This document shows positions 28,794-49,004 of a stretch of DNA of 64,000 nt, piece by piece. Both the position numbers and the translations under genes were made by a program. A model generated the notes under the pieces. It was not told the origin of the DNA, ran no database searches, and was given only the letters and a program-made list of their open reading frames with translations. Every line of letters begins with the position of its first letter. The stretch's first letter is position 1. Source of the stretch: Phormidium tenue FACHB-886 (GTDB lineage Bacteria; Cyanobacteriota; Cyanobacteriia; Elainellales; Elainellaceae); contig NZ_JACXWX010000027.1 of the NCBI RefSeq assembly GCF_014764505.1, positions 1-64,000 on the forward strand, read 5' to 3'.

Positions 28794-28866
28794 GTCGTTT
28801 GATCCTTGGTGTGAATGATCGTGATGAGTCCAAACTGTAGAGCTAGGTCAATGTCAGCAGCGTGGG

Positions 28867-30081: not shown

Positions 30082-30160
30082 GCAGGTGTTTTCCTTCTTA
30101 CGCTGATAAAGTTTCTGAATGCTTGCAAGGTGCGTAACCGTGTAGTAGCTTGGCTAGTGA

Positions 30161-31828
30161 TTAGATAGAGCCGATACCTGCAAATCCTTTAAGAATGTAG
30201 TCCACCGTGGTCATTAGCGCTTTCGGATGGAAGTGTTCCTTTAACAGTCCAAAGCTGTTGTCTTGCGCCATTCTAGATGGACTGAACAAGTAGTGTTGCA
30301 CCAGAATTGGCAGGCGATCGAGAAAGAAATTCTTGGGTTCTAGCCAGACGATGTTGAATTTTTCAGCTTCTTCTCGAACAATAGTTTCGCTAATAATGTT
30401 GGCAAAACCGCTCTTTTGGTAGGGCAAGGCATGGTGCACTCGGTGCGGACTCAGACCTGCCGATAGAAAACAATCGATGTACTTATTGCCCACCATCGTC
30501 AGATCGTAGGAATTTTTGATTTGCAACACGGCCCAATCTTGGCTCTCATCTCGTTCCGCTTCTGATTCCGCCTCTTCAAAATCGTGGCTGGCCACAATCA
30601 TGAAGGTGCTAATCCAGAGCGTCACCATAAACTGGGCAAACCAAGCCATCAAATCACCCTGCGTCCAGAACAAAACCAGCTCACCCGCTAACAGGACTCG
30701 CATTCCAAAGGTGCCGATGAAGTGAGGGAAACCGCGCTGCCAAGAGCCGTACATGTCTTCTACCCCACATTTAACCGCCAGCACACAGACCTCTATCGTT
30801 CGAGCAAACATGCCCGTAAAAACGTGACCAATTTTGTGAATGGTATGCACCGGAATTCGATAATATCTGGGCAGCTCCAGCATCGCTGTAAACACGTTTT
30901 TCTTGATATCAACCTCGCTTTGGGTGAAAGGATGGTGTAATAAAGAGTGGCCATCTGCAACCACCAAAGCCATTGGCACATAGTTAATATCAAATACATT
31001 GGTGAATATTTTGTTCAGGCGAACCTGCGGACGATGAATTAAGTAATGTCCGACCCCTGCCAGTGAGATTCTCAGCGTTGCCATCAGCAGCACGAAGAAA
31101 GGAAGGGGCATGTACTGGGTAAAATTGAGCCGCAGCACCTGCACAAGCACATAGGCAATAACCAGCAGAACGGTGATTACATCAAAGAGAGAATCCATCT
31201 GAGCCACTTTTTTTCTCATATCTGGCTCGTTTAGTCTTGTTCTGATTCGATTCAGCAGTTGATCTTTATTGTCAAAACTATACTTTGGTGTATCTCGCCA
31301 GCTGTTGAAACTATCACAAAATAGGAAGGCTGGAGCGTTACATTTAGGATGAACATCTTCCGGCTTAGCGATTCGCCCTAAAGCGTACTTTTTAAGGACT
31401 TTTTTGACCCGCTCAGGATTACGGTGAAAAATGTTGACGATTGTTGTAATATCCCGGTTCTTGGTGCGTCCGATAAAGAATTCACCACCCGGATGCTTTT
31501 TAATGAATTCAGTTAAATCGTAAGCTTCACCTGCGTAGATCCAGACGTTGGGTAAGGGGGTGCCATCTAGCGGCGGTGGTGGCGGTTCTTCTCCTTCTGC
31601 AGGCGGCGGTGGCGGTGGCTGATTGCCATTCTGATTGACGGGCGGTGCTGGCTGTTGTCCACTCTGATTGCGAGGTGGTGCAGTTGTGGAGAGCTCTACC
31701 TGCATCTGGCTGTTGCTGGGGTGGAGTTCTGCAGCAATGCCTGTGGCTTCTATCTCAACCGAGGCTTGCTTATTTTCTCGATTCCCGAAGATTTGGGTGT
31801 ACTTAAAAACCTGCGACATTACATCCAT
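30161..31828 (-). CDS. Cytochrome b5-fused fatty acid desaturase-like oxidase
   Basis: 555 residues. A low-complexity N-terminal region (about 40-95, QPPPPPPAEGEEPPPPP) precedes a cytochrome b5 domain (about 98-160) with the heme HPGG motif and a second His (FHRNPERV). A membrane desaturase or hydroxylase domain follows. Its histidine motifs include GHYLIHRP, HSLLHHP, HTIHKIGH and HRVHHALPYQ. Such fusions supply electrons from heme to a di-iron site that oxidises acyl chains. AAGGAG lies 12 bases before the chosen ATG. Position suggests it makes or modifies the starter or product of the type III PKS. Confidence 0.85.
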   Translation of the reverse strand: MDVMSQVFKYTQIFGNRENKQASVEIEATGIAAELHPSNSQMQVELSTTAPPRNQSGQQPAPPVNQNGNQPPPPPPAEGEEPPPPPLDGTPLPNVWIYAGEAYDLTEFIKKHPGGEFFIGRTKNRDITTIVNIFHRNPERVKKVLKKYALGRIAKPEDVHPKCNAPAFLFCDSFNSWRDTPKYSFDNKDQLLNRIRTRLNEPDMRKKVAQMDSLFDVITVLLVIAYVLVQVLRLNFTQYMPLPFFVLLMATLRISLAGVGHYLIHRPQVRLNKIFTNVFDINYVPMALVVADGHSLLHHPFTQSEVDIKKNVFTAMLELPRYYRIPVHTIHKIGHVFTGMFARTIEVCVLAVKCGVEDMYGSWQRGFPHFIGTFGMRVLLAGELVLFWTQGDLMAWFAQFMVTLWISTFMIVASHDFEEAESEAERDESQDWAVLQIKNSYDLTMVGNKYIDCFLSAGLSPHRVHHALPYQKSGFANIISETIVREEAEKFNIVWLEPKNFFLDRLPILVQHYLFSPSRMAQDNSFGLLKEHFHPKALMTTVDYILKGFAGIGSI

Positions 31829-32496: not shown

Positions 32497-33372
32497 TTAA
32501 GTCAAAGGATTATCCGCTATGCTCACAAAGCAGTTGTAGTCTGACCAAGCGTTGTAGAAATCTCGATAGCTAACAACTTCTGACCGACCATAGGAAATAC
32601 CGCTATCATTGAGAATCACATTGTATGAACCATCCGATCGTCGGTCGATGCCCGTTACCCAAACGGCGTGTCCTGCATTAGTTTGCTCAACAGCATTCCC
32701 ATATTGATCTCGCTTTGGGTTCCAAATCTCGTTGGCGTCTACTCCCACAATTGGTTTATCTCCCTCAGATAACGCCACCGCAATATTGTAAAGCGTAGCA
32801 TTATAGCTCTGAGTCGTGGAAATGCCGAGCGTATTAAGAATCTTTCCTACATTATTAGGCAACGTCCCAGTTTGAGGATTGAACCATCCTTGAGATTGGG
32901 CATAGTTACAAGCCGTTTGTTCACTAATATAATTACCGGTTAACGATTGGTAAACGCTAATCTGTGCAACAACCGCACAGGAAGCTTGTCCGCTTTGCTG
33001 ACGCCAATAGTATTGATCGGTCAGGGGATCGCCCCACTCGATCCCGTCATCGTACGATTCAGCCAGTGTCATCGTGTTGACCGATGTGCTGGTCGAATTA
33101 ATGGTGTTCAAATGGAAGAGACTATCTGTATCAGGCGCATCTAAGATATCAAATGAGTCTATATCAAATGAGTCGGTAGTCAGTGAATTAGCATCCAACA
33201 AATCAGCGTTTAATGAGTCAGTATCAAGCCGTTCTGATTCAGTTGACCCATTAAGAGTCAATGTAGTGTTTGATTGATCGGTGGATGTATCCGAAAGTGA
33301 TAATGGATTAAGCGGGTCGACCTCTAATAGCGATAGAGCGATTGCAGTTTTACCAACAGTTTGTGTCAACAT
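32497..33372 (-). CDS. C39-like papain-fold cysteine protease
   Basis: 291 residues; AAGGGATGA precedes the ATG. The C-terminal half is a papain-like fold of the C39-like type. Probable catalytic residues are Cys132 (GQASCAVVAQ), His235 (NAGHAVWVTG) and Asn255 or Asp256 (LNDSGI), with Gln125 as oxyanion candidate. Residues about 25-100 are a Ser/Asp/Thr-rich spacer (DTDSLNADLLDANSL and similar). No signal peptide and no ABC transporter are fused. It could mature a peptide or act after export by another route. It is the most upstream gene of the minus-strand block, cut off from it by the IS630 remnant. Confidence 0.7.
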   Translation of the reverse strand: MLTQTVGKTAIALSLLEVDPLNPLSLSDTSTDQSNTTLTLNGSTESERLDTDSLNADLLDANSLTTDSFDIDSFDILDAPDTDSLFHLNTINSTSTSVNTMTLAESYDDGIEWGDPLTDQYYWRQQSGQASCAVVAQISVYQSLTGNYISEQTACNYAQSQGWFNPQTGTLPNNVGKILNTLGISTTQSYNATLYNIAVALSEGDKPIVGVDANEIWNPKRDQYGNAVEQTNAGHAVWVTGIDRRSDGSYNVILNDSGISYGRSEVVSYRDFYNAWSDYNCFVSIADNPLT

Positions 33373-34525: not shown

Positions 34526-37500
34526 TTAATATCTTCCTTTACTTGTCGTTGCCCCTAAACCAATCAACATTGCTTGTTGGGCATCCGTCAGTCCTTTAAT
34601 TCCATGAATCTTCATGCCAGCATATAGCTCTGGTAGCTTGAGGACTTTAATACATTGCTCAGTTGCAACGTCCCACAACTGGAGAGTACCGTTGTCGCCG
34701 CCGCTGACCAAGGTTTGACCATCTGGACTGAATGCAACAGAATGCACGATCGAATTGGCTTGAAGAACGGCTTGGCATTGCCAGGATGCCACATCCCAAA
34801 TGCGAATGGTTGTGTCATAGCTGCCGCTTGCAAAGGTTTGACCATCGGGCGAAAAGGCAATGCCCATGACAATATTTTGATGATCGCTGAGGGTGCGATC
34901 GCAGTGTCCCGTTTCCAAAGACCATACTTTCACCGTTGCATCCGAACTGGCAGTGGCGATGAATGGGAGCAGGGGGTGGAATACGATCGTGGTCAACGCA
35001 TTGGTATGACCGCTCAAAACGTGTAAGCATCGTCCAGATTCAACATCCCAGAGGTGCACCGTTTCATCAAAACTGCCGCTAGCGAGAAGCTGACCATCGG
35101 TCGAAAATGCCACACACCAGATGACGGCTTGATGTCCTTGCAGAATCTTCTCAACCTGTTGATGGTTCAGATTGAAAATTTGCACAGCTTTGTCATCGCC
35201 ACCACTGGCAATCAGAGAGCCACTCGGATGAAAACAAACCGAATTTACTTTGCCGATGTGGGCTGGAATCGTGGTTAAACACGTTCCCTGTTGAACATCC
35301 CATACTTTCAAAGTTGAGCGACTGTGCATATTCCCACTCACCAACTGTTGCCCGTTCGGACTGAAAGCGATCGCATGAACTTCAGCCGGATGCTTCAATG
35401 TTTGAATACATTGGTGATCCGCGACTTGCCAAATCCGAATGATTCCATCCAGGCTGCTGCTGGTGACGGTTTGACCATCGGGCGAAAAGGCAACAGACCA
35501 GATGATGTTTTTATATCCCGACCAAGTTCTGGCACAGGCTTTACTTTCTAAATCCCAGTGTTTGATTAACCGATCCATCCCACCACTGGCAAGGGTTTTA
35601 CTATCCGCAGAAAAGGCAACGCTCATCACCATACTGCTATGACCTCGAAAACACGCAGTACATTGTCTGTCCCGCAGGTTCCAAAGTCTGGCGGTTTGAT
35701 CCATGCTGCCGCTGGCAATGGCCTGCCCATCGGGGGAAAACGCAACAGACCAAATTTGCAGCGTGTGTCCTTCAAAGTTTTGCAGACAACGTCCGGTCTG
35801 AATGTCCCAAAGTTTAACTAGAGTGTCATTGCCGCCGCTGACAACATAGCGATCGTCTGGTGAAACATCAACAGCCCAAACCGTTTGAGAATGTCCTTCA
35901 AAGATTTTGATACATCTACCTTGTGTCAGATCCCATAATCTGACCTGACGATCTTCGCCAGCACTGAGTACATGATGCGAGTCGGCAGTAAAGACAACTG
36001 AGCGAATAGAGGATTGATTTGCACTCAATGTTTGCAGGCATTGCCCAGTTTTACAATCCCAAACTTTGATGGAGCCATCCTCACATCCGCTGGCGAACCA
36101 ATTGCCATCTTTTGAGAAGGCGACAGACCAGACAATCTTTTTATGAGCATTGAGACTATATAAACATTGCCCTGTTCTCAGTTCCCAAAACTTAATCGTA
36201 CCGTCCAAGCTGCCACTGACTAAGCGTTGACTGTCGGGTGAAATGGCGATCGTAAAAGTAAAAGATTGATGAGCCTTTAATGTAATCTGGTGTTGTTCTG
36301 CATCGCATGACCAGAGATGAATCGACCCAGCAGTATCTCCCGCTGCCCAATAGTTACCATCTGGGCTGAAAGCGATCGTGGTAATCCAACCAAAGGTTTG
36401 AGAGAATCGAGACTTTGATAAATCCGCTCCAGAGAAATCCACATCATATAAGGTGATTCCCTGCAAATCTGCTTGCCAAACAGTGAGTTGAGAAAAGTCA
36501 TAGCCTGATAGATCGACACCCAATTGACGCAGCAAATTAATTATATTTCCGGTTGCGTATCCCTCCGTATGGGCAGGATCAGTTCGCATCGCCTCAAGTA
36601 TCTGCTGTACGTACAACTCGACAGCTGCGATATTTCCAAACCGGGTCATAATACAGTTGAGAATCGGTTGTAGAATTAATCGAATTTGAGCTTCCCTAAC
36701 ATAATCTTTTGCTTGCACTTGAATCAAAGCATATTGCTGTAAGAGAGAAGAATTATCGATCACATCCTCTACTTGCCAGCGACAAAACTGTTCACTCACT
36801 CGTTCAATTAAGCACTGCGTAATATACTCCATCACTACAGGTTGCTGAGTGAAATTGTTTTCCACCTTCTCAATCAGCGATCGACCCTGAAGAGATGCGA
36901 GAACCTGGAGCAATTGATGGGGTGGTACAGGCTGTACGAAATCCTCAAGTAATTCCAGCAGGCTGACGGGTTCCCGCCGGATTGCAAGCCACATCATCAC
37001 CTCTCGTTCTTGAGTGCTTAACCGCTGGAACTGTTGATCTAACAAATCACGAATATCATCAAAAATGAAAGAAGAACGTCCTAAAATTGCTAAAAACTCG
37101 TATAAATCTCCGTTACAGATGGCGCGGATAAACGAGGCGGCAATCTTGAGAGCTAGTGGATTGCCTGCGTAACGCTCATTGATGAGTTGCCAGGACACTA
37201 AATCGCCTGTAAATTGACCCGTACTGCTGATTAAATCTCGCCCTTCAATGTAAGACAACCCTTTAATCGTGAGAGATCGTACAGGCAAACTCATCCCGAC
37301 CTGGGGAACCAGATCGCGCGGTCGTTCTCGGCTAGTGACCATAAGACAACTCAGGTGCGCGGTTTCACCAATCTGTTGACACAATTGCCCATAATCTTCG
37401 TAACCCGGCTGGTAATAACCATAGCGATCGCCTGCTTGCAAAATGGCTTCTGCATTATCCAGAATCAGCAAACAGCGCTGCTTCCGTAGAGACTGAAGCA

Positions 37501-38197
37501 GTTGTGAAATCCTGGCATCGCTGGTTGGAGGCAGTTCTATATCCTGTTGCTCAGTCAAAAACTTGATTAAATCTGCCAATAAATCCACGAGTGGAGGAGC
37601 ATTCCGCAGGCTGCGCCAGATGACAAACTCAAAGTCTGACTGCACCATTTGACCCACTTTGATAGAGAGTGCCGTTTTGCCGATACCTCCCATGCCCAGC
37701 AGCCAGATGAATCGGCAGCGATCGGAAACCAGCCACTGACTCAAGATCTCCTGTTCTTGAACTCGTCCTAAAAAAGTAGACACATCGATCGCCTCTCCCC
37801 AATCACATCTGGGACGGAAATCGTTGCTTTGGCAAGCTGGTTTTTGAGTTGACGGCTCTTGAGTTGACGGTTTTTGAGTTGACGGCTCCTGAATTGAGAA
37901 AGGCAGCCTGGGTAGCAATTGCCGGTCCAAGGCGAACTTAAAGTTTGTTTTGCTAACGGGTTCTCCCAGAGCTACTGATAAATCGCGCCAAAGTTTGGGC
38001 CCAACATCTTTCCGCAAATAGTTACTGGAGTAGCCTGTTTCTTGAGCAATCTGTTCATAGGTCTTCTGCTCCCAGGCTCCACGCAAAATCAAGGTATCAA
38101 CATCAGTCAGGGGGCGCAGATCCGCCTGGACAAGTAAATTGCTGGCAAGTTGCAACGCTTGTTCAATTTCCATAGGTTGCCTTTCGTTCTCGCTCAC
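34526..38197 (-). CDS. NB-ARC/WD40 STAND signalling protein
   Basis: 1,223 residues. Residues 1-95 resemble the HTH-like module at the start of many cyanobacterial STAND proteins (TYEQIAQETGYSSNYLRKDV). A spacer with a QEPSTQKPST repeat precedes the NB-ARC ATPase (Walker A GMGGIGKT at 168-175; Walker B LLILDN near 243). A short pentapeptide-like stretch (TLYDVDFSGADLSKSRF) leads into fourteen WD40 repeats from about residue 615, enough for two seven-bladed propellers. Such proteins are ATP-driven switches that oligomerise on ligand binding. No effector domain is recognisable. It diverges from the precursor-peptide locus and could regulate it or sense threats; neither is shown. Confidence 0.9.
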   Translation of the reverse strand: MSENERQPMEIEQALQLASNLLVQADLRPLTDVDTLILRGAWEQKTYEQIAQETGYSSNYLRKDVGPKLWRDLSVALGEPVSKTNFKFALDRQLLPRLPFSIQEPSTQKPSTQEPSTQKPACQSNDFRPRCDWGEAIDVSTFLGRVQEQEILSQWLVSDRCRFIWLLGMGGIGKTALSIKVGQMVQSDFEFVIWRSLRNAPPLVDLLADLIKFLTEQQDIELPPTSDARISQLLQSLRKQRCLLILDNAEAILQAGDRYGYYQPGYEDYGQLCQQIGETAHLSCLMVTSRERPRDLVPQVGMSLPVRSLTIKGLSYIEGRDLISSTGQFTGDLVSWQLINERYAGNPLALKIAASFIRAICNGDLYEFLAILGRSSFIFDDIRDLLDQQFQRLSTQEREVMMWLAIRREPVSLLELLEDFVQPVPPHQLLQVLASLQGRSLIEKVENNFTQQPVVMEYITQCLIERVSEQFCRWQVEDVIDNSSLLQQYALIQVQAKDYVREAQIRLILQPILNCIMTRFGNIAAVELYVQQILEAMRTDPAHTEGYATGNIINLLRQLGVDLSGYDFSQLTVWQADLQGITLYDVDFSGADLSKSRFSQTFGWITTIAFSPDGNYWAAGDTAGSIHLWSCDAEQHQITLKAHQSFTFTIAISPDSQRLVSGSLDGTIKFWELRTGQCLYSLNAHKKIVWSVAFSKDGNWFASGCEDGSIKVWDCKTGQCLQTLSANQSSIRSVVFTADSHHVLSAGEDRQVRLWDLTQGRCIKIFEGHSQTVWAVDVSPDDRYVVSGGNDTLVKLWDIQTGRCLQNFEGHTLQIWSVAFSPDGQAIASGSMDQTARLWNLRDRQCTACFRGHSSMVMSVAFSADSKTLASGGMDRLIKHWDLESKACARTWSGYKNIIWSVAFSPDGQTVTSSSLDGIIRIWQVADHQCIQTLKHPAEVHAIAFSPNGQQLVSGNMHSRSTLKVWDVQQGTCLTTIPAHIGKVNSVCFHPSGSLIASGGDDKAVQIFNLNHQQVEKILQGHQAVIWCVAFSTDGQLLASGSFDETVHLWDVESGRCLHVLSGHTNALTTIVFHPLLPFIATASSDATVKVWSLETGHCDRTLSDHQNIVMGIAFSPDGQTFASGSYDTTIRIWDVASWQCQAVLQANSIVHSVAFSPDGQTLVSGGDNGTLQLWDVATEQCIKVLKLPELYAGMKIHGIKGLTDAQQAMLIGLGATTSKGRY
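37841..37898. repeat. 15-bp tandem repeat in STAND gene
   Basis: Alternating 15-bp units TTTTTGAGTTGACGG and CTCTTGAGTTGACGG, about four copies, encode the minus-strand QEPSTQKPST spacer. The unit is a multiple of three, so copy-number change lengthens or shortens only the linker between the HTH and ATPase domains. Confidence 0.75.
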
Positions 38198-38458: not shown

Positions 38459-38638
38459 ATGAAACGAATCAAATTGAATGCCAACCTGAACAACCTGAAT
38501 CAACTGTTGCAACCCTTACCAGAGACGACTCAGCAATACATCAACGGTGGTAAAAATTCAAATGGTCGTCGGTGTAGATGGGTTAAGGGCAAAGGCTTGA
38601 TATGCGATGGAGGAGCTTTTGGAACCTTTAATCCTTGA
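38459..38638 (+). CDS. Precursor peptide P1 (CX9C core)
   Basis: 59 residues. The leader is of the MKRIK...NQLLQPLPETTQQ type and ends in INGG, the expected cut site of the C39 exporter at 44313-46454. The core is basic and has two cysteines nine residues apart (CRWVKGKGLIC), the spacing found in P7, P8 and P9. GGAA lies about eight bases before the ATG. It is the first gene of the locus, 261 bp from the divergent STAND gene. It is probably a bacteriocin-like or signalling peptide. Confidence 0.75.
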   Translation: MKRIKLNANLNNLNQLLQPLPETTQQYINGGKNSNGRRCRWVKGKGLICDGGAFGTFNP

Positions 38639-38859
38639 GGCAACTCAGTCCTATAGCCCCATAGCCGCAAAGGGTAGGGTGGGCATCGCTCACAAAGTGC
38701 CATAGTCAAGGCTTTTGGGAAACGTGGGCAGTCCCCACCTTACCGAGAATCGCTATACGGGAGGTGGCGATCTAGAGCCAGGTTGCCGACGCAGGATCAT
38801 CCTTGACGGGATCGCCCCTTCGTCCATTCAGTCCATCCACTCATCTATGGAGAACAACC
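38639..38859. other. Spacer between P1 and P2
   Basis: About 220 bp without an open frame of the leader type. It contains several short GTGGG/CCCAC complementary runs, such as GTGGGCAGTCCCCAC, that can form small hairpins. No complete element could be delimited. Confidence 0.4.
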
Positions 38860-39018
38860 ATGAAACAAATTTCAACTCAAACCAACGTCAATCAATTTCT
38901 GCAACCTCTATCTGAATCGACTCAAGCAACGATTCGAGGTGGTAGTGAAGGCGGAACTGCTACCTGTACTTGCAAGAAGACCGAACCCAAGTTGCGTGAG
39001 AAGAATCCCTATCTGTAA
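38860..39018 (+). CDS. Precursor peptide P2 (CTC core)
   Basis: 52 residues. Leader MKQIS...NQFLQPLSEST ends in TIRGG. The short core has a vicinal-type CTC motif followed by many charged residues (KKTEPKLREKNPYL). TGGAGAACAACC precedes the ATG. P3 starts 10 bp after its stop, so the two are probably co-translated. Confidence 0.7.
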   Translation: MKQISTQTNVNQFLQPLSESTQATIRGGSEGGTATCTCKKTEPKLREKNPYL

Positions 39019-39028
39019 TGAGTAGACA

Positions 39029-39223
39029 ATGAAACGAATCAAACGAAAAGTAAATCTAGAGCAACTGCAATTAATTCCTGAATCTAGCGAAGAAGTTATT
39101 TGTGGGGGTCAAATTAAACTATCTGACTGCCTCATCACAAGTGATTCTTCATCAGGAACAGTAGAAGCAGGAAGAGGAGTCCCAGAAAAAGAGATCGAGG
39201 TGCATTCGTTCTCGTGGGGCTGA
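39029..39223 (+). CDS. Precursor peptide P3
   Basis: 64 residues. Leader MKRIKRKVNLEQLQLIPESS ends in VICGG. The core is acidic and Ser-rich (KLSDCLITSDSSSGTVEAG) with one Cys and an aromatic end (HSFSWG). No good ribosome-binding site is seen and the gene starts 10 bp after P2, so it probably depends on P2 translation. Confidence 0.65.
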   Translation: MKRIKRKVNLEQLQLIPESSEEVICGGQIKLSDCLITSDSSSGTVEAGRGVPEKEIEVHSFSWG

Positions 39224-39384
39224 TGAAGCTGATAGCAACCTTTATGGTTTGTCCTTTTCAGGTTTCTTTCACTTCAAATAAAGCGCGTTCACACATCTCT
39301 GCAAGAGAATTGCCCAGTTAACTTTTTGGGGTGCGATCGCCCTTGCTCAAATCAACATCTATCTATTCCCTCTGGAGAAAAATC

Positions 39385-39564
39385 ATGAAACGAATCAAAT
39401 CGAACGTCAACATTGATCAACTGTTGCAACCCCTACCTGAAACTGTTCAACAAACTGTGCGCGGAGGTGCTTCAGATTACTTTTTAGATCTTGATGGAGT
39501 TAAGGGAGAATCTACATCACGTAGTGAACCTGTTATTCCAGTAAAAATAAAACACAATATCTAG
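39385..39564 (+). CDS. Precursor peptide P4 (VKIKH tail)
   Basis: 59 residues. Leader MKRIKSNVNIDQLLQPLPET ends in TVRGG and is preceded by GGAG seven bases before the ATG. The core has no Cys and ends in VIPVKIKHNI. That ending recurs in P10 and P13 and, more loosely, in P12 and P14, defining a second core class. A HIP1-type GCGATCGC lies about 50 bp upstream. Confidence 0.72.
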   Translation: MKRIKSNVNIDQLLQPLPETVQQTVRGGASDYFLDLDGVKGESTSRSEPVIPVKIKHNI

Positions 39565-39589
39565 CACTGTAATTCACCGAGGAACAACA

Positions 39590-39760
39590 ATGAAACGGAT
39601 TGACGTTACAACCAAAATCAGCAACGAACTATCCTTGAATCTCGTCTCTGCAACTGCATTGCAAGACCTTTCAGATGCTGAGAGCCAAACCATTCAAGGT
39701 GGTTGGTTACTACTACCAGCGGTTCAAGGAGCGAGGGAGGCGGCTCGTAGACATTCCTGA
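39590..39760 (+). CDS. Precursor peptide P5 (LSDAESQ leader)
   Basis: 56 residues. The leader differs from P1-P4: it ends LQDLSDAESQTIQGG, resembling other cyanobacterial double-glycine leaders. The core is short and starts hydrophobic (WLLLPAVQGA), then turns basic (REAARRHS). GAGGA precedes the ATG. It has no Cys. Confidence 0.62.
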   Translation: MKRIDVTTKISNELSLNLVSATALQDLSDAESQTIQGGWLLLPAVQGAREAARRHS

Positions 39761-39791
39761 ATTCCACGAAGTTTAGCTAAAGGAGAATCAA

Positions 39792-39956
39792 ATGAAAACG
39801 AATGAGTCTGCAAAAACATCGATTCAGTCAACAAACAATTCACTCTGGTCAACACTTTCAGATGCTGAAAGCCAAGCTATCAAAGCGGGTGAATTCTGTC
39901 ATGGAGTGACTGTTTTAGCCTGGGCACGAGTCGATGGGGCTAGCCCGCTGCGTTAG
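39792..39956 (+). CDS. Precursor peptide P6 (AG cut site)
   Basis: 54 residues. The leader shares LSDAESQ with P5, but the expected double glycine is AIKAG, so the cut site would be Ala-Gly. The core (EFCHGVTVLAWARVDGASPLR) has one Cys. AAAGGAG precedes the ATG by six bases. An AG site is known to be tolerated by some C39 peptidases; processing here is unproven. Confidence 0.55.
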   Translation: MKTNESAKTSIQSTNNSLWSTLSDAESQAIKAGEFCHGVTVLAWARVDGASPLR

Positions 39957-40063
39957 GCACTCTAGCTTTGAAGAAACACCTTGAACATTCGAGACATAAT
40001 TCTAATTTGCTCAATGTTCACAACTCAAACAGTTCTAAATTCCTACCAAGAGGTTATCTAATC

Positions 40064-40270
40064 ATGTTGAATCTGTTCAATTCTCAAGTCAAGTCTGTCA
40101 ATCAAGTTGAATTGGCTCAATCATCGGTTCAATCATCTGATCGTCTTTGGTCTGATTTATCTGCCAATGAGTCTTCATCCTTTACAGGAGGTGGTGGCAG
40201 AAAACTGCCGCCGGGTTGCCGACGTATGCTCTTTGGCGGAACCGTTTGTAGAGAACCCGGAGTTGATTAA
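40064..40270 (+). CDS. Precursor peptide P7 (CX9C, GVD end)
   Basis: 68 residues from the ATG at 40064; the open frame extends upstream without support. Leader MLNLFNSQVK...LWSDLSANESSS ends in FTGG. The core has CRRMLFGGTVC and ends in GVD. P8 and P9 are tandem paralogues that keep leader and GVD end but differ in between. An AGAGG lies about ten bases upstream of the start. Confidence 0.72.
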   Translation: MLNLFNSQVKSVNQVELAQSSVQSSDRLWSDLSANESSSFTGGGGRKLPPGCRRMLFGGTVCREPGVD

Positions 40271-40334
40271 GCGTCGAAATCTACGAGTTCAAAATGATAG
40301 TTACAGTTCTAAATTCCTACGAGGTTAGCAAGTC

Positions 40335-40538
40335 ATGTTGAATCTGTTCAATTCTCAAGTCAAGTCTGCAAATCAAGTCGAATTGGCTCAATCATCGGTT
40401 CAATCACCCGATCGTCTTTGGACTGATTTATCCGCCAATGAGTCTTCATCTTATACAGGAGGTGCCACTTTTAAGCGGTGCCGACGCGCGCCCGGGGGCT
40501 GGACGATTTGCACAAGACGGGAACCGGGTGTTGATTAA
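40335..40538 (+). CDS. Precursor peptide P8 (CX9C, GVD end)
   Basis: 67 residues, the second of three tandem paralogues. The leader is almost identical to P7 and ends in YTGG. The core has CRRAPGGWTIC and ends in EPGVD. It is strongly basic through Arg and Lys. The spacer to P7 repeats GTTCTAAATTCCTAC, so the whole cassette, not just the gene, was duplicated. Confidence 0.72.
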   Translation: MLNLFNSQVKSANQVELAQSSVQSPDRLWTDLSANESSSYTGGATFKRCRRAPGGWTICTRREPGVD

Positions 40539-40602
40539 TCATTTAGGTTCACGAGATCAGAATGATGGTTACAGTTCTAAATTCCTACAAGGTTATCTAA
40601 TC

Positions 40603-40785
40603 GTGTTCAATCTGTTCAATTCTCGCGTTCAGTCTGCCAATCAAGTCGAATTGACTCAATCATCCGATCGTCTTTGGACTGATTTATCCGCCAATGAGTC
40701 TGCATCTTACACAGGAGGCGGGAAAACGAAGTGTCATTGGAGGCGTGATGGAACGCTTGTTTGCAAGTTAGGTGGTGTTGATTAA
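40603..40785 (+). CDS. Precursor peptide P9 (CX9C, GVD end)
   Basis: 60 residues from a GTG at 40603, placed exactly where P7 and P8 have ATG. The leader lacks four residues relative to P8 and ends in YTGGG. The core has CHWRRDGTLVC and ends in GGVD. It is third of the tandem set. The 12-bp hairpin at 40819-40853 follows. Confidence 0.7.
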   Translation: MFNLFNSRVQSANQVELTQSSDRLWTDLSANESASYTGGGKTKCHWRRDGTLVCKLGGVD

Positions 40786-40818
40786 TTGTCTAAGTTTATG
40801 GTTCAAAAAATCTAAACG

Positions 40819-40853
40819 ATTCCCCGGAAGTTGGCTTAACTCTTCCGGGGAAT
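40819..40853 (+). terminator. Hairpin between P9 and P10
   Basis: ATTCCCCGGAAG pairs perfectly with CTTCCGGGGAAT across an 11-base loop. There is no T-run after it, so it may be an RNA-processing or partial-termination site dividing the peptide genes into two expression blocks. Confidence 0.5.
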
Positions 40854-40910
40854 GCAGCAGAATCGCCCAATTTCGACTCAACCTCGATCCCATTCCAATG
40901 GAGAAAAATC

Positions 40911-41078
40911 ATGAAACCAATCAAATCGAATACCAATCCGAACGACCTGAACACCAACCTGAACCCACTGGTGCAACCTTTAACTGAAACTGCTCAGGAA
41001 ACCATTTGTGGAGGTGCAGCAGCAGCGTCTGGTGGGAGTGGGCTTGTAGTCCCAGTCAAAATAAAACACGGTGTTTGA
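40911..41078 (+). CDS. Precursor peptide P10 (VKIKH tail)
   Basis: 55 residues. Leader MKPIKSNTNPNDL...LVQPLTETAQE ends in TICGG; an extra NLN repeat lengthens its middle. The core is Ala/Gly/Ser-rich and ends in VVPVKIKHGV, almost the same as P4 and P13. GGAG lies seven bases before the ATG. Confidence 0.7.
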   Translation: MKPIKSNTNPNDLNTNLNPLVQPLTETAQETICGGAAAASGGSGLVVPVKIKHGV

Positions 41079-41182
41079 ACCCACTTACGTTCTTCACGTT
41101 AAGGAAAACGCGATCGCCCATTCAATTTTTTGAGGAGCGATCGTCCAACTTAACTCAACCCCTACTCAATTGAAGAATCATC

Positions 41183-41401
41183 ATGAAACGAATCGAACCA
41201 AAAGAAAAATTGAAGCGACTGTTCCAAACTATGACCGAATCAACTGAGGAGACTATCCGTGGCAGTGGTCGCCCTGCGAGTGGTGGTGGAGACTGTCCTC
41301 CTATCTTTGACATTGTTGATTCAGTCGCTGGGGCAGGTTCTGGAACTACGGCGGCTATCAAAGTGAGGCGCTCTGGAGTGTCGGACGGGGGTAATCCCTA
41401 G
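41183..41401 (+). CDS. Precursor peptide P11 (GS cut site)
   Basis: 72 residues. Leader MKRIEPKEKLKRLFQTMTES ends in TIRGSG, so the usual double glycine is Gly-Ser. The core is Gly/Ser-rich with one Cys (GGGDCPPIFDIVDSVAGAG) and a tail (AAIKVRRSGV) weakly like the VKIKH tail of P4. The altered cut site may reduce export. Confidence 0.6.
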   Translation: MKRIEPKEKLKRLFQTMTESTEETIRGSGRPASGGGDCPPIFDIVDSVAGAGSGTTAAIKVRRSGVSDGGNP

Positions 41402-41508
41402 TAGACATAGCACTGTTGCACCTTTTGTTAGGGCATCGTTCTTCCATTCTTTGAGCAGCGCTCGCCCGATTTCAAGTCAACCCCTACCCCATTCCAATGG
41501 AGAGCATT

Positions 41509-41697
41509 ATGAAACGCAGTAAATCCGAAGTCAACATCAACCCACTGCTACACGATCTGCCTGAAACGACTCAGCAATTTATTCGCGGCGGCACTTCTAT
41601 TGAAGCTAATGAAGGAAATTCTACTGAGACCGCTCAGACTCCTGTAATTGGTGGTCATGGCTACATCAAAATTAAAAAGTTGGATTCTGGCGGCTGA
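41509..41697 (+). CDS. Precursor peptide P12 (GYIKIK tail)
   Basis: 62 residues from the ATG at 41509. Leader MKRSKSEVNINPLLHDLPET ends in FIRGG. The core is Thr/Glu/Asn-rich, has no Cys and ends PVIGGHGYIKIKKLDSGG. The same tail, slightly changed, survives as an orphan at 42110-42169. TGGAGAGCATT precedes the start. Confidence 0.7.
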   Translation: MKRSKSEVNINPLLHDLPETTQQFIRGGTSIEANEGNSTETAQTPVIGGHGYIKIKKLDSGG

Positions 41698-41814
41698 TTA
41701 GTTTGGTTAATTTTTCAATGGCTAGTTCAGAAAAACGCGATCGCTCCTTCAACCTTCTGGGATGCGATCGCTCTTTCTCCCGTCCAACTCATCCAAATCC
41801 AATAGAAGAAAACC

Positions 41815-42081
41815 ATGAAACAGGTCAAATCGAACACCAACATTAACCAACTGCTGCAACCCTTACCTGAAACTGCTCAGGAAGTCATTTGTGGAGGTGG
41901 CAGTACATCCATTGCTGTTAGTAACTTAGAGGGTACGTCAGGAGGCACTGAGTTTGTAGCACCAGTAAAAATAGAACATGGGGTAGATGGAACTCGTACT
42001 CCAATAAAAACGTTTTTTTGCCCAAGTCGCCGACAATCAGTCGCAACATCTAACGCCTTCAACAGCCTCGTACTCCAATAA
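41815..42081 (+). CDS. Precursor peptide P13 (VKIEHG, extended by rearrangement)
   Basis: 88 residues, the longest of the set. Leader MKQVKSNTNINQLLQPLPET ends in VICGG. The core reaches VAPVKIEHGV, where P10 stops. Here it runs on into 33-bp repeat DNA (41993-42025 and 42067-42099), giving an unrelated end with one Cys. This looks like fusion of a P10-type gene with rearranged sequence. Confidence 0.65.
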   Translation: MKQVKSNTNINQLLQPLPETAQEVICGGGSTSIAVSNLEGTSGGTEFVAPVKIEHGVDGTRTPIKTFFCPSRRQSVATSNAFNSLVLQ

Positions 42082-42099
42082 AAACGTTTCTTTGCCCAA
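41993..42099. repeat. 33-bp direct repeats flanking 41 bp
   Basis: CTCGTACTCCAATAAAAACG followed by TTTTTTTGCCCAA at 41993-42025 recurs at 42067-42099 with one difference. The first copy lies inside P13 and the second before the orphan tail of a P12-like peptide, consistent with insertion or recombination between cassettes. Confidence 0.75.
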
Positions 42100-42109
42100 A
42101 CACACACAA

Positions 42110-42169
42110 CCTGTTCTAGTTGGTGGTCATGGCTACATCAAAATTAAGGAGTTGAATTCTGGTGACTGA
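42110..42169 (+). pseudogene. Orphan P12-like precursor tail
   Basis: Twenty codons, PVLVGGHGYIKIKELNSGD plus stop, match the end of P12 at all but a few positions. No leader precedes them. This is the remainder of another precursor gene whose front was lost in the rearrangement marked by the 33-bp repeats. Confidence 0.7.
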
Positions 42170-42239
42170 TTAGTTGAGTAAACACAACAAACCTGTCGAT
42201 CGCTCTTCAACTCCTACCTTATTCAAATGGAGAAACACA

Positions 42240-42431
42240 ATGAAACAGATTAAAACTCAACCAAACATCAATTCACTGCTACAAGATTTGCCCGAATCAA
42301 CTCAGCAAGTTATTCGGGGTGGCAGTGACGGAAGTGTGAGATTTTTGAAGTCGTCGCTGAGCAGCAGTGTTGGATCAATCTCTGGTGGAACCCATTACAC
42401 TGGATATGTTAAGGTTTCCGAACATGGTTAA
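42240..42431 (+). CDS. Precursor peptide P14 (GYVKVSEHG tail)
   Basis: 63 residues from the ATG at 42240; the open frame extends upstream to 42174 but the ATG with ATGGAGAAACACA before it fits the other genes. Leader MKQIKTQPNINSLLQDLPES ends in VIRGG. The core is Ser/Gly-rich, has no Cys and ends in TGYVKVSEHG, a variant of the VKIKHG tail. Confidence 0.7.
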   Translation: MKQIKTQPNINSLLQDLPESTQQVIRGGSDGSVRFLKSSLSSSVGSISGGTHYTGYVKVSEHG

Positions 42432-42553
42432 TCTTAACTGCTCAAAGAATTGTCGGAGTAATTAGTAGAAAGTAGCGCGATCAAACTCCGAAAAATTGAA
42501 GGAACGATCGCGCAATCTTGAATTTAGTCAAACCAGTTTGAAGGAGAAAAACA

Positions 42554-42694
42554 ATGGATCAGATCAAATCGAGAGTCATCATCAATCAACTTTTGCAACC
42601 CATATCTGAAGATGCCCAACAAGCGGTGAGGGGCGGTGTTCGCTATAGTCAGGTTCAACCAGAATACAAATATGTTTCTATTAGGAGATATTAG
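42554..42694 (+). CDS. Precursor peptide P15
   Basis: 46 residues, the shortest. Leader MDQIKSRVIINQLLQPISED ends in AVRGG. The core, VRYSQVQPEYKYVSIRRY, is Tyr/Arg-rich with no Cys and fits neither core class. AAGGAG lies seven bases before the ATG. Confidence 0.68.
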   Translation: MDQIKSRVIINQLLQPISEDAQQAVRGGVRYSQVQPEYKYVSIRRY

Positions 42695-42739
42695 GAAATA
42701 GCTATGCCACAACGTCATTTCATCACTCGGAGAAGCAAA

Positions 42740-42931
42740 ATGAACGGCTCTAACGATCGCCTTCCCCGACCCAAATACGTCGAATTGCCAGACGAATTAG
42801 CTGCCCATCTCTGCGGTGGCACTATTCCTGAAGTTCATAAAGTTCCCGATATCACCCTAAAACGAGGGGTGTTCAGCCTCAATTATTTTGATAGTAAATT
42901 ATTAACAGCGGTTGATTTCAAGGATGAATAA
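42740..42931 (+). CDS. Precursor peptide P16, overlapping hlyD
   Basis: 63 residues from the ATG at 42740 (GGAG seven bases upstream); a start at 42704 would add 12 residues. The leader is divergent (YVELPDELAAHLCGG) but ends in a double glycine. The core (TIPEVHKVPDITLKRGVFSL and on) has no Cys. Its end overlaps the HlyD start by 8 bp, which couples peptide and exporter translation. Confidence 0.6.
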   Translation: MNGSNDRLPRPKYVELPDELAAHLCGGTIPEVHKVPDITLKRGVFSLNYFDSKLLTAVDFKDE

Positions 42932-44294
42932 ACTATCATTTAATCTTCTAGATGACGTTAAAGATTCCAATGCCTTCCTCAACCCAGACAGCCTTTCTTC
43001 AGTTCAGGCAAACGAGTTTTTGCCGCCTGTAGGACGATGGACAACCTTTGGAGGTCTTGCAATGTTGGCTATCTTTGGGGGAACGATCGCGCTTGCTGCT
43101 GTGTTGAAATATCCAACGACGGTTGAATCTACAGCAACCATTCGTCCTGTCGGAGATTTGCGAACTGTTCAGGCAGTTACCACTGGTAAAGTCGATCGAA
43201 TTGAGGTGAAACTGCATCAAGTGGTACAACAAGGGCAGACGATCGCCTACCTGGATGACTCTCGCCTACAAACGCAAAAGCGGCAACTTCAAAGTAGTAT
43301 TGAGCAAACTCAGCAGCAACTTGTTCAAGTCGATGCTCAAATTCAGTCGGTACAAACTCAAATTACCGCAGAGGTTCAGGCACTTCAGCGAGGAATTGCT
43401 GCTGGAGAAGGAGAACTGCGCTTAAGTCAACGCCGACACCAGGAACAGCAAACAACCACACAGGCAGAAGCACGAGAAGCACAAGCCGCCGTCAAACTGG
43501 CTCAGGAAGAGTTAACTCGATATCAAACTCTGGCTAATACAGGAGCCGTGAGTCAATCTCAAATAGGTGAGAAAACTGCTTCTCTGGAAGTTGCCCTTGC
43601 CCGCCTGCAACGTACCCAGGCTGCGCTCAATCCCAGTGCAGCACAAGTAGAAATTGCAACAGAAAAGGTGGAACAAGAACGGGCGAGAGGGGCAGCAACG
43701 CTGGCTACTATGCAGAAAGAACAGGAAGCCCTGATTCAGCAGCGAGTGAAGTTGGAAAATGAATCGACTCGCGATCGTCAGGAACTTCAACAGCTTGAAA
43801 CTGATGCAACGCGCACCACAATTCGATCGCCGATCGCGGGCACCATTCAACAGTTAAATCTCCGCAGCACCGAACAGCTAGTACAGCCTGGTGATCTCAT
43901 CGCTCAGATTGCTCCTGGTCAGGTTCCTTTAGTGGTGAAAGCCTACGTGCCAACTCAGGAAATTGGTTGGGTGGAAGTTGGTCAATCTGTGACCATGAAG
44001 GTGTCAGGATGTCCTTATCCTGATTATGGAACACTGGCAGGTGAGGTGATCACCGTCTCGCCGGATGCAGGATCACTCGCCTCAACCGCAAATTCCTCTC
44101 AACCAGATTCTCCTAAGCCGCTGTCACAGTCCTACTACGAAGTCACCATTCAACCTCACGCTCAATTTGTTGGCTCAAATCATTCCTTATGCCATCTTCA
44201 AACTGGTATGGATGGCGTTGCCAATATTGTTACCCGTACCGAGACGGTGTTGGTTTTTTTAATGAGAAAAGCAAGGCTACTGGTTGGAGTTTAA
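42924..44294 (+). CDS. HlyD-type adaptor of the peptide exporter
   Basis: 456 residues from the ATG at 42924; a TTG at 42912 is an alternative. One membrane helix (GLAMLAIFGGTIALAAVL) follows a short cytoplasmic start. The lipoyl half-motifs (VQAVTTGKVDRIEVKLHQVV and TTIRSPIAGTIQQLNL) flank a long coiled coil (residues about 110-295, Gln/Glu/Ala-rich). A beta-barrel end follows. It bridges the inner-membrane ABC exporter to an outer-membrane pore. It is 18 bp from the exporter gene and overlaps P16, so all are one operon. Confidence 0.9.
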   Translation: MNKLSFNLLDDVKDSNAFLNPDSLSSVQANEFLPPVGRWTTFGGLAMLAIFGGTIALAAVLKYPTTVESTATIRPVGDLRTVQAVTTGKVDRIEVKLHQVVQQGQTIAYLDDSRLQTQKRQLQSSIEQTQQQLVQVDAQIQSVQTQITAEVQALQRGIAAGEGELRLSQRRHQEQQTTTQAEAREAQAAVKLAQEELTRYQTLANTGAVSQSQIGEKTASLEVALARLQRTQAALNPSAAQVEIATEKVEQERARGAATLATMQKEQEALIQQRVKLENESTRDRQELQQLETDATRTTIRSPIAGTIQQLNLRSTEQLVQPGDLIAQIAPGQVPLVVKAYVPTQEIGWVEVGQSVTMKVSGCPYPDYGTLAGEVITVSPDAGSLASTANSSQPDSPKPLSQSYYEVTIQPHAQFVGSNHSLCHLQTGMDGVANIVTRTETVLVFLMRKARLLVGV

Positions 44295-44312: not shown

Positions 44313-46454
44313 ATGAAATATCCTATCGTTCTCCAGCACAGTGAAGAAGATTGCGGTGCGGCGTGTCTTGCTACGATCGCCAAAACTCATGGACGAATAT
44401 TTGCTATTTCGCGGATTCGAGAAGCGATCGGCACTGGGCAGTTGGGAACGACGCTGTTAGGCTTACGGCGCGGTGCAGAAACACTCGGATTTAATGCTCG
44501 TTCCGTCAAAGCCACTCCTGAGTTTATTGATCATCTCGATGAATCACCCCTACCCGCCATCATTCACTGGAAAGGCTACCACTGGGTTGTTTTACATGGT
44601 CGCAGGCAAAAGAAGTATGTGATTGCTGATCCAGGCATTGGGATGCGCTATCTTTCCCACGAAGCCTTGCTAGAGTCCTGGAACGGCGTGATGCTGCTGC
44701 TGGTTCCCGATGAAAACCGTTTCTATAAGCAACCCAGCGATCAAATTGCGGGGTTTGGTCGCTTCCTCCGCCGCGTCTGGCATTATCGCAGCTTAGTTGC
44801 CCAGGTGTTGCCGCTGAATTTAGTAATTGGGCTATTGTCCTTAGCGTTTCCGTTGCTGCTCCAGGTCTTGACGGACGATGTGCTGGTGCGAGGTGATTGG
44901 AATTTACTGGTGACAGTGGCGATCGCAGTGACGGCTGTAACTCTGTTTAGTAGCCTGATGCGGCTGATTCAAGCTCATCTGGTCGCTCACTTTGCCCAAC
45001 GGCTGGAACTAGGACTGGCACTGGATTTTGGTCGTCAAATTTTGCATCTGCCATTGAGCTATTACGAATCGCACCGGAGCGGCGAAATTGTTAGCCGTCT
45101 GCACGATATTCGAGAAATTAATTTGCTGGTGTCGCAGGTGGTGATTAGCCTGCCCAGTGAAACTTTTATTGCTCTGGTGTCGCTGGGATTGATGCTGATT
45201 TATAGCTGGAAGTTGACCATAGCAGCAATCGTAGTTGCCATTTTAATGACGTTATCAACTCTGATATTCTTACCTACGTTGCAGCAAAAGACCCGTGATG
45301 TATTGGTAACTGAATCCGAAAATCAAGGATTACTGGTGGAAACGTTCAAAGGAGCGTTAACACTCAAAACTACGAACGCCGCTCCACAAGCTTGGGAAGA
45401 AGTTCAGAGTCGATTTGGCAAGCTCGCCAATGTCACCTTTCACCTGTTGCAAATCAACATTGTGAATCATGTTTTCTCTACCCTGGTGTCTGGTTTAGGA
45501 ATGCTGGCAGTGCTGTGTTTTGGCAGCTTTTTAGTAATTCGCCAGGAACTCTCGATCGGGCAATTGTTAGCATTCAATGCGATGAACCGCAATTTCACGA
45601 CTTTAATTAGCACCGTGATTAACTTTGTCGATGAATTTGCCCGTGCCAAAACTGCCACCCAGCGCATTGGCGATATTATTGATGCCACTCCTGAAGTTCC
45701 CGTTGATGCTTTAAAAGACTGGGCAACAATTCCCGCCGATGCTTCCATTACCTGCACCGATTTGAACTTTCACCATATCGGACGAGTTGCCTTGCTCAAT
45801 AACTTTTCTGTCACCATTCCCGGTGGTAAAGTCACAGCATTAATTGGTAAATCGGGCTGTGGTAAGAGTACGTTAGCAAAACTAATTGCGGGGCTATACC
45901 CATTACAATCTGGCAATATTCGCTTTGGACAGTACAATCAATCAGATTTAGCACTGGAATGTTTGCGACAACAAATTGCTTTAGTGCCCCAAGAAGCCCA
46001 CTTTTGGAGTCGATCGATCATCAACAATTTTCGCTTCAGTTATCCAAATGCCACACTCGAACAGATTGTCCACGCTTGTCAGGTCGCAGGTGCGGATGAG
46101 TTTATTAGCAACTTGCCAGATAAATACCACACGGTGTTGGGTGAGTTTGGCGCAAATTTGTCAGGCGGACAACGGCAACGGTTGGCGATCGCTCGTGCTA
46201 TCCTCACTGATCCGCCCGTGCTGGTTCTGGATGAATCGACAGGTGCCCTCGATCCTGTCACCGAAGCGGAAGTGTTGGACACGCTACTGGCGCATCGTCA
46301 GGGCAAAACCACGATTATGATTAGCCATCGTCCCAGAGTCATTCAACGCGCTGATTGGATTGTGCTGCTCAATCAGGGTGAACTCAAACAAACCGGAACC
46401 CCGGAAATGTTAAGCCAACTGCCGGGGGAACATTTAAATTTCTTGAATCCTTAA
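44313..46454 (+). CDS. C39-peptidase ABC exporter (leader-cleaving)
   Basis: 713 residues, the full length of this class. An N-terminal C39 peptidase (about 1-135) has Gln8, Cys14 (EEDCGAACLA), His90 (GYHWVVLHG) and Asp106 (IADPGIG). A six-helix membrane domain (about 155-450) follows. The ATPase domain has Walker A (GKSGCGKST), signature (LSGGQRQRLAIARA) and Walker B (VLVLDESTGALD). Such proteins cut substrates after a double glycine and pump out the core. Sixteen matching substrates lie directly upstream. No outer-membrane pore gene is present. Confidence 0.95.
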   Translation: MKYPIVLQHSEEDCGAACLATIAKTHGRIFAISRIREAIGTGQLGTTLLGLRRGAETLGFNARSVKATPEFIDHLDESPLPAIIHWKGYHWVVLHGRRQKKYVIADPGIGMRYLSHEALLESWNGVMLLLVPDENRFYKQPSDQIAGFGRFLRRVWHYRSLVAQVLPLNLVIGLLSLAFPLLLQVLTDDVLVRGDWNLLVTVAIAVTAVTLFSSLMRLIQAHLVAHFAQRLELGLALDFGRQILHLPLSYYESHRSGEIVSRLHDIREINLLVSQVVISLPSETFIALVSLGLMLIYSWKLTIAAIVVAILMTLSTLIFLPTLQQKTRDVLVTESENQGLLVETFKGALTLKTTNAAPQAWEEVQSRFGKLANVTFHLLQINIVNHVFSTLVSGLGMLAVLCFGSFLVIRQELSIGQLLAFNAMNRNFTTLISTVINFVDEFARAKTATQRIGDIIDATPEVPVDALKDWATIPADASITCTDLNFHHIGRVALLNNFSVTIPGGKVTALIGKSGCGKSTLAKLIAGLYPLQSGNIRFGQYNQSDLALECLRQQIALVPQEAHFWSRSIINNFRFSYPNATLEQIVHACQVAGADEFISNLPDKYHTVLGEFGANLSGGQRQRLAIARAILTDPPVLVLDESTGALDPVTEAEVLDTLLAHRQGKTTIMISHRPRVIQRADWIVLLNQGELKQTGTPEMLSQLPGEHLNFLNP

Positions 46455-47123: not shown

Positions 47124-49004
47124 ACCATCTGCCCCTCTACACCCTTTCAGGGATTGAAACAATTGAATCAAAGACAGTCGTGTGTATCACTCGGAGCGAT
47201 GATCACTACCAAACCCTTTCAGGGATTGAAACTCACCTGCCTGAAATCTCAGAGTTCAATAGCTGGGCGATGATCACTACCAAACCCTTTCAGGGATTGA
47301 AACTCTATAAAGTTGATCGAGTAATTCATCACGCTTGGCGATGATCACTACCAAACCCTTTCAGGGATTGAAACTCTTCGTTCCGGGCGTAAGCCCCCAG
47401 CAGAGCTGGGCGATGATCACTACCAAACCCTTTCAGGGATTGAAACAGGAGAATTCAAAATTGACATCATCGGGGGTAGTTGCGATGATCACTACCAAAC
47501 CCTTTCAGGGATTGAAACTTGTTTTGAATGTATTTCTGAAGTTCATAGAATCGGCGATGATCACTACCAAACCCTTTCAGGGATTGAAACCTATCGCAGA
47601 AGCGGCGAATCGGATTGAATTCTTAGGCGATGATCACTACCAAACCCTTTCAGGGATTGAAACGTTCATCTTGGAAATCGTACCGTGAAACGTACAAGCG
47701 ATGATCACTACCAAACCCTTTCAGGGATTGAAACCTCCGATGATGGTTCATTCGATGGCTTCAAAGAATGCGATGATCACTACCAAACCCTTTCAGGGAT
47801 TGAAACCAAATAGAAGGGTTGAAACAAGCGCTAGCATCCAGCGATGATCACTACCAAACCCTTTCAGGGATTGAAACGTTTCTCAAAAACCTCTTTAACA
47901 TTAAAACCTAAAGCAATGATCACTACCAAACCCTTTCAGGGATTGAAACTTCTTTTATAGCTAAATTTAGGAAGAAATTAAAAGCGATGATCACTACCAA
48001 ACCCTTTCAGGGATTGAAACGAGTATATTGTCAGGTTTGGAGTTAAGCAGACCAGCGATGATCACTACCAAACCCTTTCAGGGATTGAAACTAACTCGTT
48101 GCTACCTAAAGGAATTACGTACCGGGGCGATGATCACTACCAAACCCTTTCAGGGATTGAAACATTCTGTTACTGGTTGGAGGTATGGCTGCGTTACTGC
48201 GATGATCACTACCAAACCCTTTCAGGGATTGAAACTTGAAAGCGGCATAGTTTCGTCATTCGCATTACAGGCGATGATCACTACCAAACCCTTTCAGGGA
48301 TTGAAACAGTATCGTTGTAACGTCAAGCGAGGCTAAGCCTGTGCGATGATCACTACCAAACCCTTTCAGGGATTGAAACATCTTTTCTATTCCTCCCTCT
48401 TTATCTGGATCTTGCGATGATCACTACCAAACCCTTTCAGGGATTGAAACTCACCATCGTCGCTTTTTGCGTCGATGGATCGAGGCGATGATCACTACCA
48501 AACCCTTTCAGGGATTGAAACAAGACAGAGCGTCCTGAGTCCAAGATTCCGATCATGCGATGATCACTACCAAACCCTTTCAGGGATTGAAACGAGGTGG
48601 AGGAGTTTGACGATATCGAAGAGAAGACGCGATGATCACTACCAAACCCTTTCAGGGATTGAAACATCGTTTGACGTATACGGGGCTGCGCTGACTGAGG
48701 CGATGATCACTACCAAACCCTTTCAGGGATTGAAACCCAGAGGCTTACGGTTAGCCCGTACAGTGAGACAAGCGATGATCACTACCAAACCCTTTCAGGG
48801 ATTGAAACCAATCAACTGCGCGAAAACAAGCCTCCCGAACCTGCGATGATCACTACCAAACCCTTTCAGGGATTGAAACACTTTGCTGCTACATGCTGCG
48901 GGAGGGGTCGGAAGCGATGATCACTACCAAACCCTTTCAGGGATTGAAACGATCACCTACGGACCACGGGCACATAGAAGCGACGGCGATGATCACTACC
49001 AAAC
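47124..49004 (+). CRISPR. Orphan CRISPR array, 26 spacers, truncated by an IS
   Basis: The 37-bp repeat begins GCGATGATCACTACCAAAC and ends CCCTTTCAGGGATTGAAAC. There are 25 full copies (47196 to 48950, one with GCAATG at 47913), a first copy at 47124-47160 whose 5' half differs at about ten positions, and a final 19-bp stub at 48986-49004. Spacers are mostly 34-37 bp. The ATTGAAAC end suggests plus-strand transcription. No cas gene is present in the window. Open frames in the array are only repeat translations. Confidence 0.97.

Follow-up and report, generated by a model that had tools for sequence, protein, structure and literature searches.

A cyanobacterial array of sixteen double-glycine precursors contains a small family with a fixed CX9C cysteine frame and a predicted hairpin core

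Class II microcins, such as microcin V, combine a double-glycine (GG) leader, a C39 exporter with an HlyD-type protein and one C-terminal disulfide; their much longer core and their linked immunity gene set them apart, by description, from the peptides considered here. In cyanobacteria, the group III clusters of Wang, Fewer and Sivonen (2011; PMC3140520) hold one to sixteen precursors per cluster, with very little conservation of the core. The locus described below has the same gene layout, that is, a short C39-ABC exporter, an HlyD protein and densely packed GG precursors, sixteen in this case, with cores that are likewise little conserved, and as a type of cluster it is already known. However, the text on group III omits cysteines and disulfides, whereas our locus encodes cores with two Cys residues separated by nine others (CX9C). 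The novelty lies in a small family of precursors whose Cys frame is fixed in two genera, and in a lookalike core behind a different leader. EbfG1-4 and PteB of Synechococcus elongatus (PMC4997328, PMC9981879) likewise associate GG-motif peptides with a C39 exporter, but EbfG1-4 differ in their larger mature peptides, amyloid formation and role in biofilms, and the accessible parts of these reports describe no Cys pair. Animal bactenecin, thanatin and arenicin (PMC4410394, PMC13001179) are short and cationic, with a single disulfide that closes a hairpin, as is predicted here; they are eukaryotic, have other loop sizes (Cys3-Cys11 in bactenecin) and lack a GG leader, and the likeness is one of form alone and not of homology.

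The window analysed is the whole stretch of 64,000 nucleotides at the start of contig NZ_JACXWX010000027.1 of Phormidium tenue FACHB-886. From 38459 to 42931, sixteen small precursor genes, all on the + strand, form one run that is co-directional with the HlyD and C39-ABC genes:

38459..38638, + strand: P1 precursor, leader family A2 (MKRIK...LPETTQQYINGG), core KNSNGRRCRWVKGKGLICDGGAFGTFNP with CX9C, charge +5
38860..39018, + strand: P2 precursor, A2 leader, core with CXC (TCTCKK) instead of CX9C
39029..39223, + strand: P3 precursor, A2 leader, single core Cys
39385..39564, + strand: P4 precursor, A2 leader, core without Cys, conserved in Elainella saxicola
39590..39760, + strand: P5 precursor, GG type with another leader, core WLLLPAVQGAREAARRHS, conserved in E. 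saxicola
39792..39956, + strand: P6 precursor, GG type with an AG site, single core Cys
40064..40270, + strand: P7 precursor, leader family A3, core GGRKLPPGCRRMLFGGTVCREPGVD with CX9C, charge +3
40335..40538, + strand: P8 precursor, leader family A3, core ATFKRCRRAPGGWTICTRREPGVD with CX9C, charge +4
40603..40785, + strand: P9 precursor, leader family A3, GTG start, core GKTKCHWRRDGTLVCKLGGVD with CX9C, charge +3
40911..42694, + strand: P10-P15, six A2-leader precursors (starts 40911, 41183, 41509, 41815, 42240 and 42554), none with a two-Cys core
42740..42931, + strand: P16, GG precursor, its stop codon overlapping the start of HlyD
42924..44294, + strand: HlyD-type membrane fusion protein (HlyD_3, 8e-21)
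44313..46454, + strand: short-type ABC exporter containing a C39 peptidase (Peptidase_C39 9e-36, ABC_membrane 2e-36, ABC_tran 5e-31)

The start of HlyD was taken as the ATG at 42924, the ORF finder giving TTG at 42912. The exporter is 713 residues long, with the C39 domain at residues 2-134 followed by the transmembrane region and the ATPase, and has no N-terminal extension. The A2 leader (MKRIKSNVNINQLLQPLPETTQQxIRGG) is found in 10 of the 16 precursors, P1 included, while P7-P9 have in common the A3 leader, MFNLFNSQVKSANQV...LWTDLSANESASYTGG. P1, P7, P8 and P9 are genuine GG precursors of this array.

The initial annotation had proposed that these four peptides each contain exactly two core cysteines with nine residues between them, and this was confirmed for all four: CRWVKGKGLIC in P1, CRRMLFGGTVC in P7, CRRAPGGWTIC in P8 and CHWRRDGTLVC in P9. 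The peptides that follow the GG site are 21-28 residues long and, as had also been stated, all basic, with net charges from +3 to +5. The basic pair described after the first Cys is present in P7 and P8 (CRR) but not in P1 (CRW) or P9 (CHW); therefore, what all four share is that loop position 2 is basic. Similarly, the Gly placed in the middle of the loop occupies position 7 in P7-P9, but P1 has Gly at positions 6 and 8. P7-P9 are tandem duplicates, with a 144-nt repeat at spacings of 271 and 268 bp and a protein identity of 67-80%, so they have one origin and not three, and their agreement counts once. Between paralogues the leaders are 77-92% identical and the cores 29-59%, which indicates that the Cys frame stays in place as the remaining sequence changes.

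The search with a profile of P7-P9 covered 390 genomes of the class, and that with a profile including the new homologues covered 36 genomes of the family. Clear relatives (E 7e-28 and 1e-25) were found in one further genome, that of Elainella saxicola E1 (LUGL01000038.1), which belongs to the same GTDB family and to another genus; NCBI places the species in the Oculatellaceae. Its two homologues of P7-P9, ...GGARVIRCRTKLNGIRLCVEREPGVD and ...GGMKCRWRRDGTLVCKAEGVR, both have CX9C, and the counterpart of P9 has ATG at the place of the GTG start. A comparison of homologous loci had been suggested as the check on whether the spacing is fixed: CX9C is present in 5/5 members of the P7-P9 family, from two genera (two genomes), and the loop shows neither insertion nor deletion in these five A3 members. 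In all five, loop position 2 is basic, position 7 is Gly and position 10, where a beta-branched or aliphatic residue had been noted, is aliphatic, while the distance from GG to the first Cys and the length of the tail vary and most core residues change. Positions 3 and 9 are occupied by W and L in P9, its E. saxicola counterpart and P1, by R and T in P7 and P8, and by T and R in the other E. saxicola copy. Such a pattern might reflect the residue pairing expected of a cross-strand pair, the independent cases being few.

Two further matches were rejected. One, in genome G021, is weak (E 0.002); the genes on either side of it are unrelated and its frame contains no precursor. The other, to the core-only profile in G251 (E 2e-4 over the 390 genomes), lies in a frame without a start or GG leader. 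A single-sequence search with P8 in 40 relatives returned chance-level matches only. Relatives were absent from viral contigs and plasmids, a sequence search of the PDB gave nothing similar, and no convincing Pfam or NCBIfam match was obtained for the A2 leader, the A3 leader or the CX9C core. The rarity of the spacing was also apparent from a crude scan of about 44 C39-exporter loci, which yielded 116 candidate GG precursors and undercounts them (P9 and one E. saxicola copy were missed). In this set 90/116 candidates had no core Cys and 9/116 had two; among the two-Cys cores, a spacing of 9 was confined to the window and E. saxicola, and the other spacings were 1, 1, 2, 2 and 31. When 40 other exporter loci were inspected for CX9C beside GG, no leader-bearing case was found outside the window. 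The agreement on CX9C exceeds chance.

P1 deserves separate consideration, since its leader is from another family. Against a profile built from the other five loops, that of P1 reached 16.6 bits, higher than the leave-one-out scores of three of the members (12.4, 12.1 and 10.8). With the Cys residues fixed, 0.5% of shuffles of the nine loop residues of P1 reached this score, and 0.09% did so when the interior was filled with residues from the whole core, which gives P 0.0009-0.005 given CX9C; of whole-core shuffles 0.006% reached it (P 6e-5 overall). Moreover, 0/806 other CX9C segments in the DNA examined scored as high; the best of them outside the family, CNWQVGGAILC, came close at 16.1 bits and was discarded as it lies inside a WD40 protein. 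The resemblance of the P1 loop to those of P7-P9 therefore goes beyond spacing, and it argues against the idea that the CX9C of P1 is a coincidence and that P1 is unrelated to P7-P9 in form or function. We regard this idea as unlikely, in spite of several points in its favour: besides the foreign leader and the displaced Gly residues, CX9C is missing from the other A2-leader peptides, no A2 peptide with a P1-like core was found in the window genome or in E. saxicola, where no counterpart of P1 was found at all, and the chance of a spacing of 9, taken alone, is roughly 5% for two Cys in 28 residues. The claim that the core shape is conserved across leader types is thus upheld as far as a likeness beyond chance behind an unrelated leader is concerned, but not for the Gly at position 7. 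Core architecture that stays constant while sequence and leader change is the case shown here. The likeness may stem either from common descent, through an exchange of cores, or from convergence. An ambitious version, according to which leader and core would be exchangeable modules, with one disulfide-hairpin core behind two unrelated GG leaders and the cluster acting as a shuffling library in which variable residues sit on a stable hairpin scaffold of fixed Cys frame, seems to us decidedly improbable; if true, the exchange of leaders and cores would be comparable to a natural cyclic-peptide display set.

The two-stranded hairpin that had been proposed for these cores was modelled with AlphaFold without templates, P1 being folded without an alignment. 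In the model of P9 the strands are 42-46 and 52-56, with Cys 44 and 54, and in that of P1 they are 38-42 and 46-49, with Cys 39 and 49. Both models pair the two Cys across the strands, as the proposal expects, but the confidence is modest (block pLDDT 72-76, near 75, and pTM 0.23-0.30) and the support is accordingly weak. An odd spacing with Gly at position 7 suits this fold, because a three-residue turn at 5-7 sets C1 opposite C11. In the mitochondrial 'twin CX9C' proteins, two copies of such a motif lie on a helical hairpin; an identity with them was rejected, as here there is one motif, with predicted strands.

We tentatively propose that P1 and P7-P9 are exported, disulfide-closed, cationic beta-hairpins, most likely antagonistic, and consider this reading, taken as a whole, to fall somewhat short of an even chance. 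The C39 domain of the adjacent ABC exporter would cut the precursors after the double glycine, and the mature peptides would leave through the ABC exporter, the HlyD protein and an outer-membrane channel; one dedicated exporter probably trims and exports all sixteen peptides. Outside the cell, the two Cys would be oxidised to give a closed 11-residue loop, and this would fold as a beta-hairpin in which Gly7 allows a turn at 5-7 (type I + G1 bulge) and the pairs are C1-C11, W/R/T3 with L/T/R9, and basic 2 with aliphatic 10.

The simplest end product would be a plain disulfide, since no LanC-like cyclase (PF05147) was found in a search of the whole genome and none of the large ORFs nearby stood out as a modifying enzyme. 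Many cyanobacterial GG precursors do belong to modified RiPPs (PMC3140520), and the Cys residues might instead be modified enzymatically (lanthionine or another thioether) or bind a metal; given these negative results, and cores that are poor in Ser/Thr, we consider this very unlikely. Also very unlikely is a function as protease-inhibitor loops, in which the CX9C disulfide loop would present a basic P1 residue like the amphibian Bowman-Birk-type ranacyclins (CWTKSXPPXPC). The ranacyclin loop has the identical size of 11 residues (PMC7407945) and one E. saxicola loop, CRTKLNGIRLC, has T-K at the P2-P1 places. However, ranacyclins are animal peptides, the T-K occurs in 1/6 loops, and the canonical S-X-P-P that defines the class is absent from 6/6, none of which has the motif CTP1SXPPXC or CWTKSXPPXPC.

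As to the role of the proposed hairpins, they would hit the envelope of competitor bacteria as one set in a sixteen-peptide cocktail. Antagonism appears the most likely role by analogy with cationic single-disulfide hairpins (PMC4410394, PMC13001179) and with GG/C39-exported bacteriocins. Two facts count against it. There is no convincing candidate for a membrane-type immunity gene in the array, where most of the small ORFs with TM-like character run antisense or overlap precursors, and EbfG1-4, the cyanobacterial GG peptides examined by experiment, have their role in biofilms and not in killing. A serious rival, which we judge possible but doubtful, is that the hairpins, exported and disulfide-closed as above, act among the producers in assembling biofilms or in cell-cell signalling and not against competitors, in the manner of EbfG or of what has been proposed for the HetC substrate of Nostoc. 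The accessible parts of the EbfG reports describe C39-exported peptides that are required for biofilms, three of them forming amyloid (PMC4997328, PMC9981879), and HetC is a cyanobacterial C39 exporter required for differentiation (PMC10986499). On the other hand, EbfG1-4 are longer (6-7 kDa when mature), and a compact cationic disulfide loop with a fast-changing core fits antagonism at least equally well. Whichever role applies, if the hairpins form, bacteria would have a gene-encoded family of minimal disulfide beta-hairpins in which one frame carries natural variants, and this family would offer a handle on the cyanobacterial roles of C39-exported peptides, which mostly have no assigned function.

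The A2-leader peptides P4, P10, P12, P13 and P14 (39385-42431) have the C-terminal motif VPVKIKHxx or GYIKIKKLDSGG; the latter motif recurs as a stray copy, GYIKIKELNSGD, at about 42092-42169, and a distant relative in genome G196 ends with YLKVKKLNSGE. The core of P5 (39704-39757) is nearly kept in E. saxicola as GLLLPAVQSAREASR (L137:14008-14166). It gave no match in a Pfam scan and resembles the LLPAVQxAREAAR stretch, which we take to be that of DUF1559 prepilin-like proteins.

Besides the two homologues of P7-P9, the similar locus in E. saxicola contains a P5-like and a P4-like precursor. Its C39-ABC exporter is 61% identical to that of the window, and its HlyD protein, 38% identical, sits after the exporter and not before it as in the window. 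The exporter of the window is nearer to exporters from other families (identity up to 69%), and so, as judged by these identities, the history of the exporter may differ from that of the precursors. Two WD40 proteins are encoded beside the precursors of E. saxicola, and their identities to the large protein at 34526-38197 (- strand) of the window are 66% and 54%. This window protein adjoins the precursor array and has 14 WD40 matches as well as what looks like an NTPase region. Further upstream, the region 27024-31828 (- strand) encodes an ABC exporter, a chalcone-synthase-like type III PKS and a cytochrome b5/fatty-acid desaturase fusion, and resembles a separate biosynthetic cluster. A protein at 32497-33372 (- strand) has a weak Peptidase_C39_2-like match (E 0.005), under the curated cut-off. 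Immediately downstream of the exporter, a CRISPR-like array (47196-49004) comprises at least 25 repeats (GCGATGATCACTACCAAACCCTTTCAGGGATTGAAAC) with a period of 71-73 bp.
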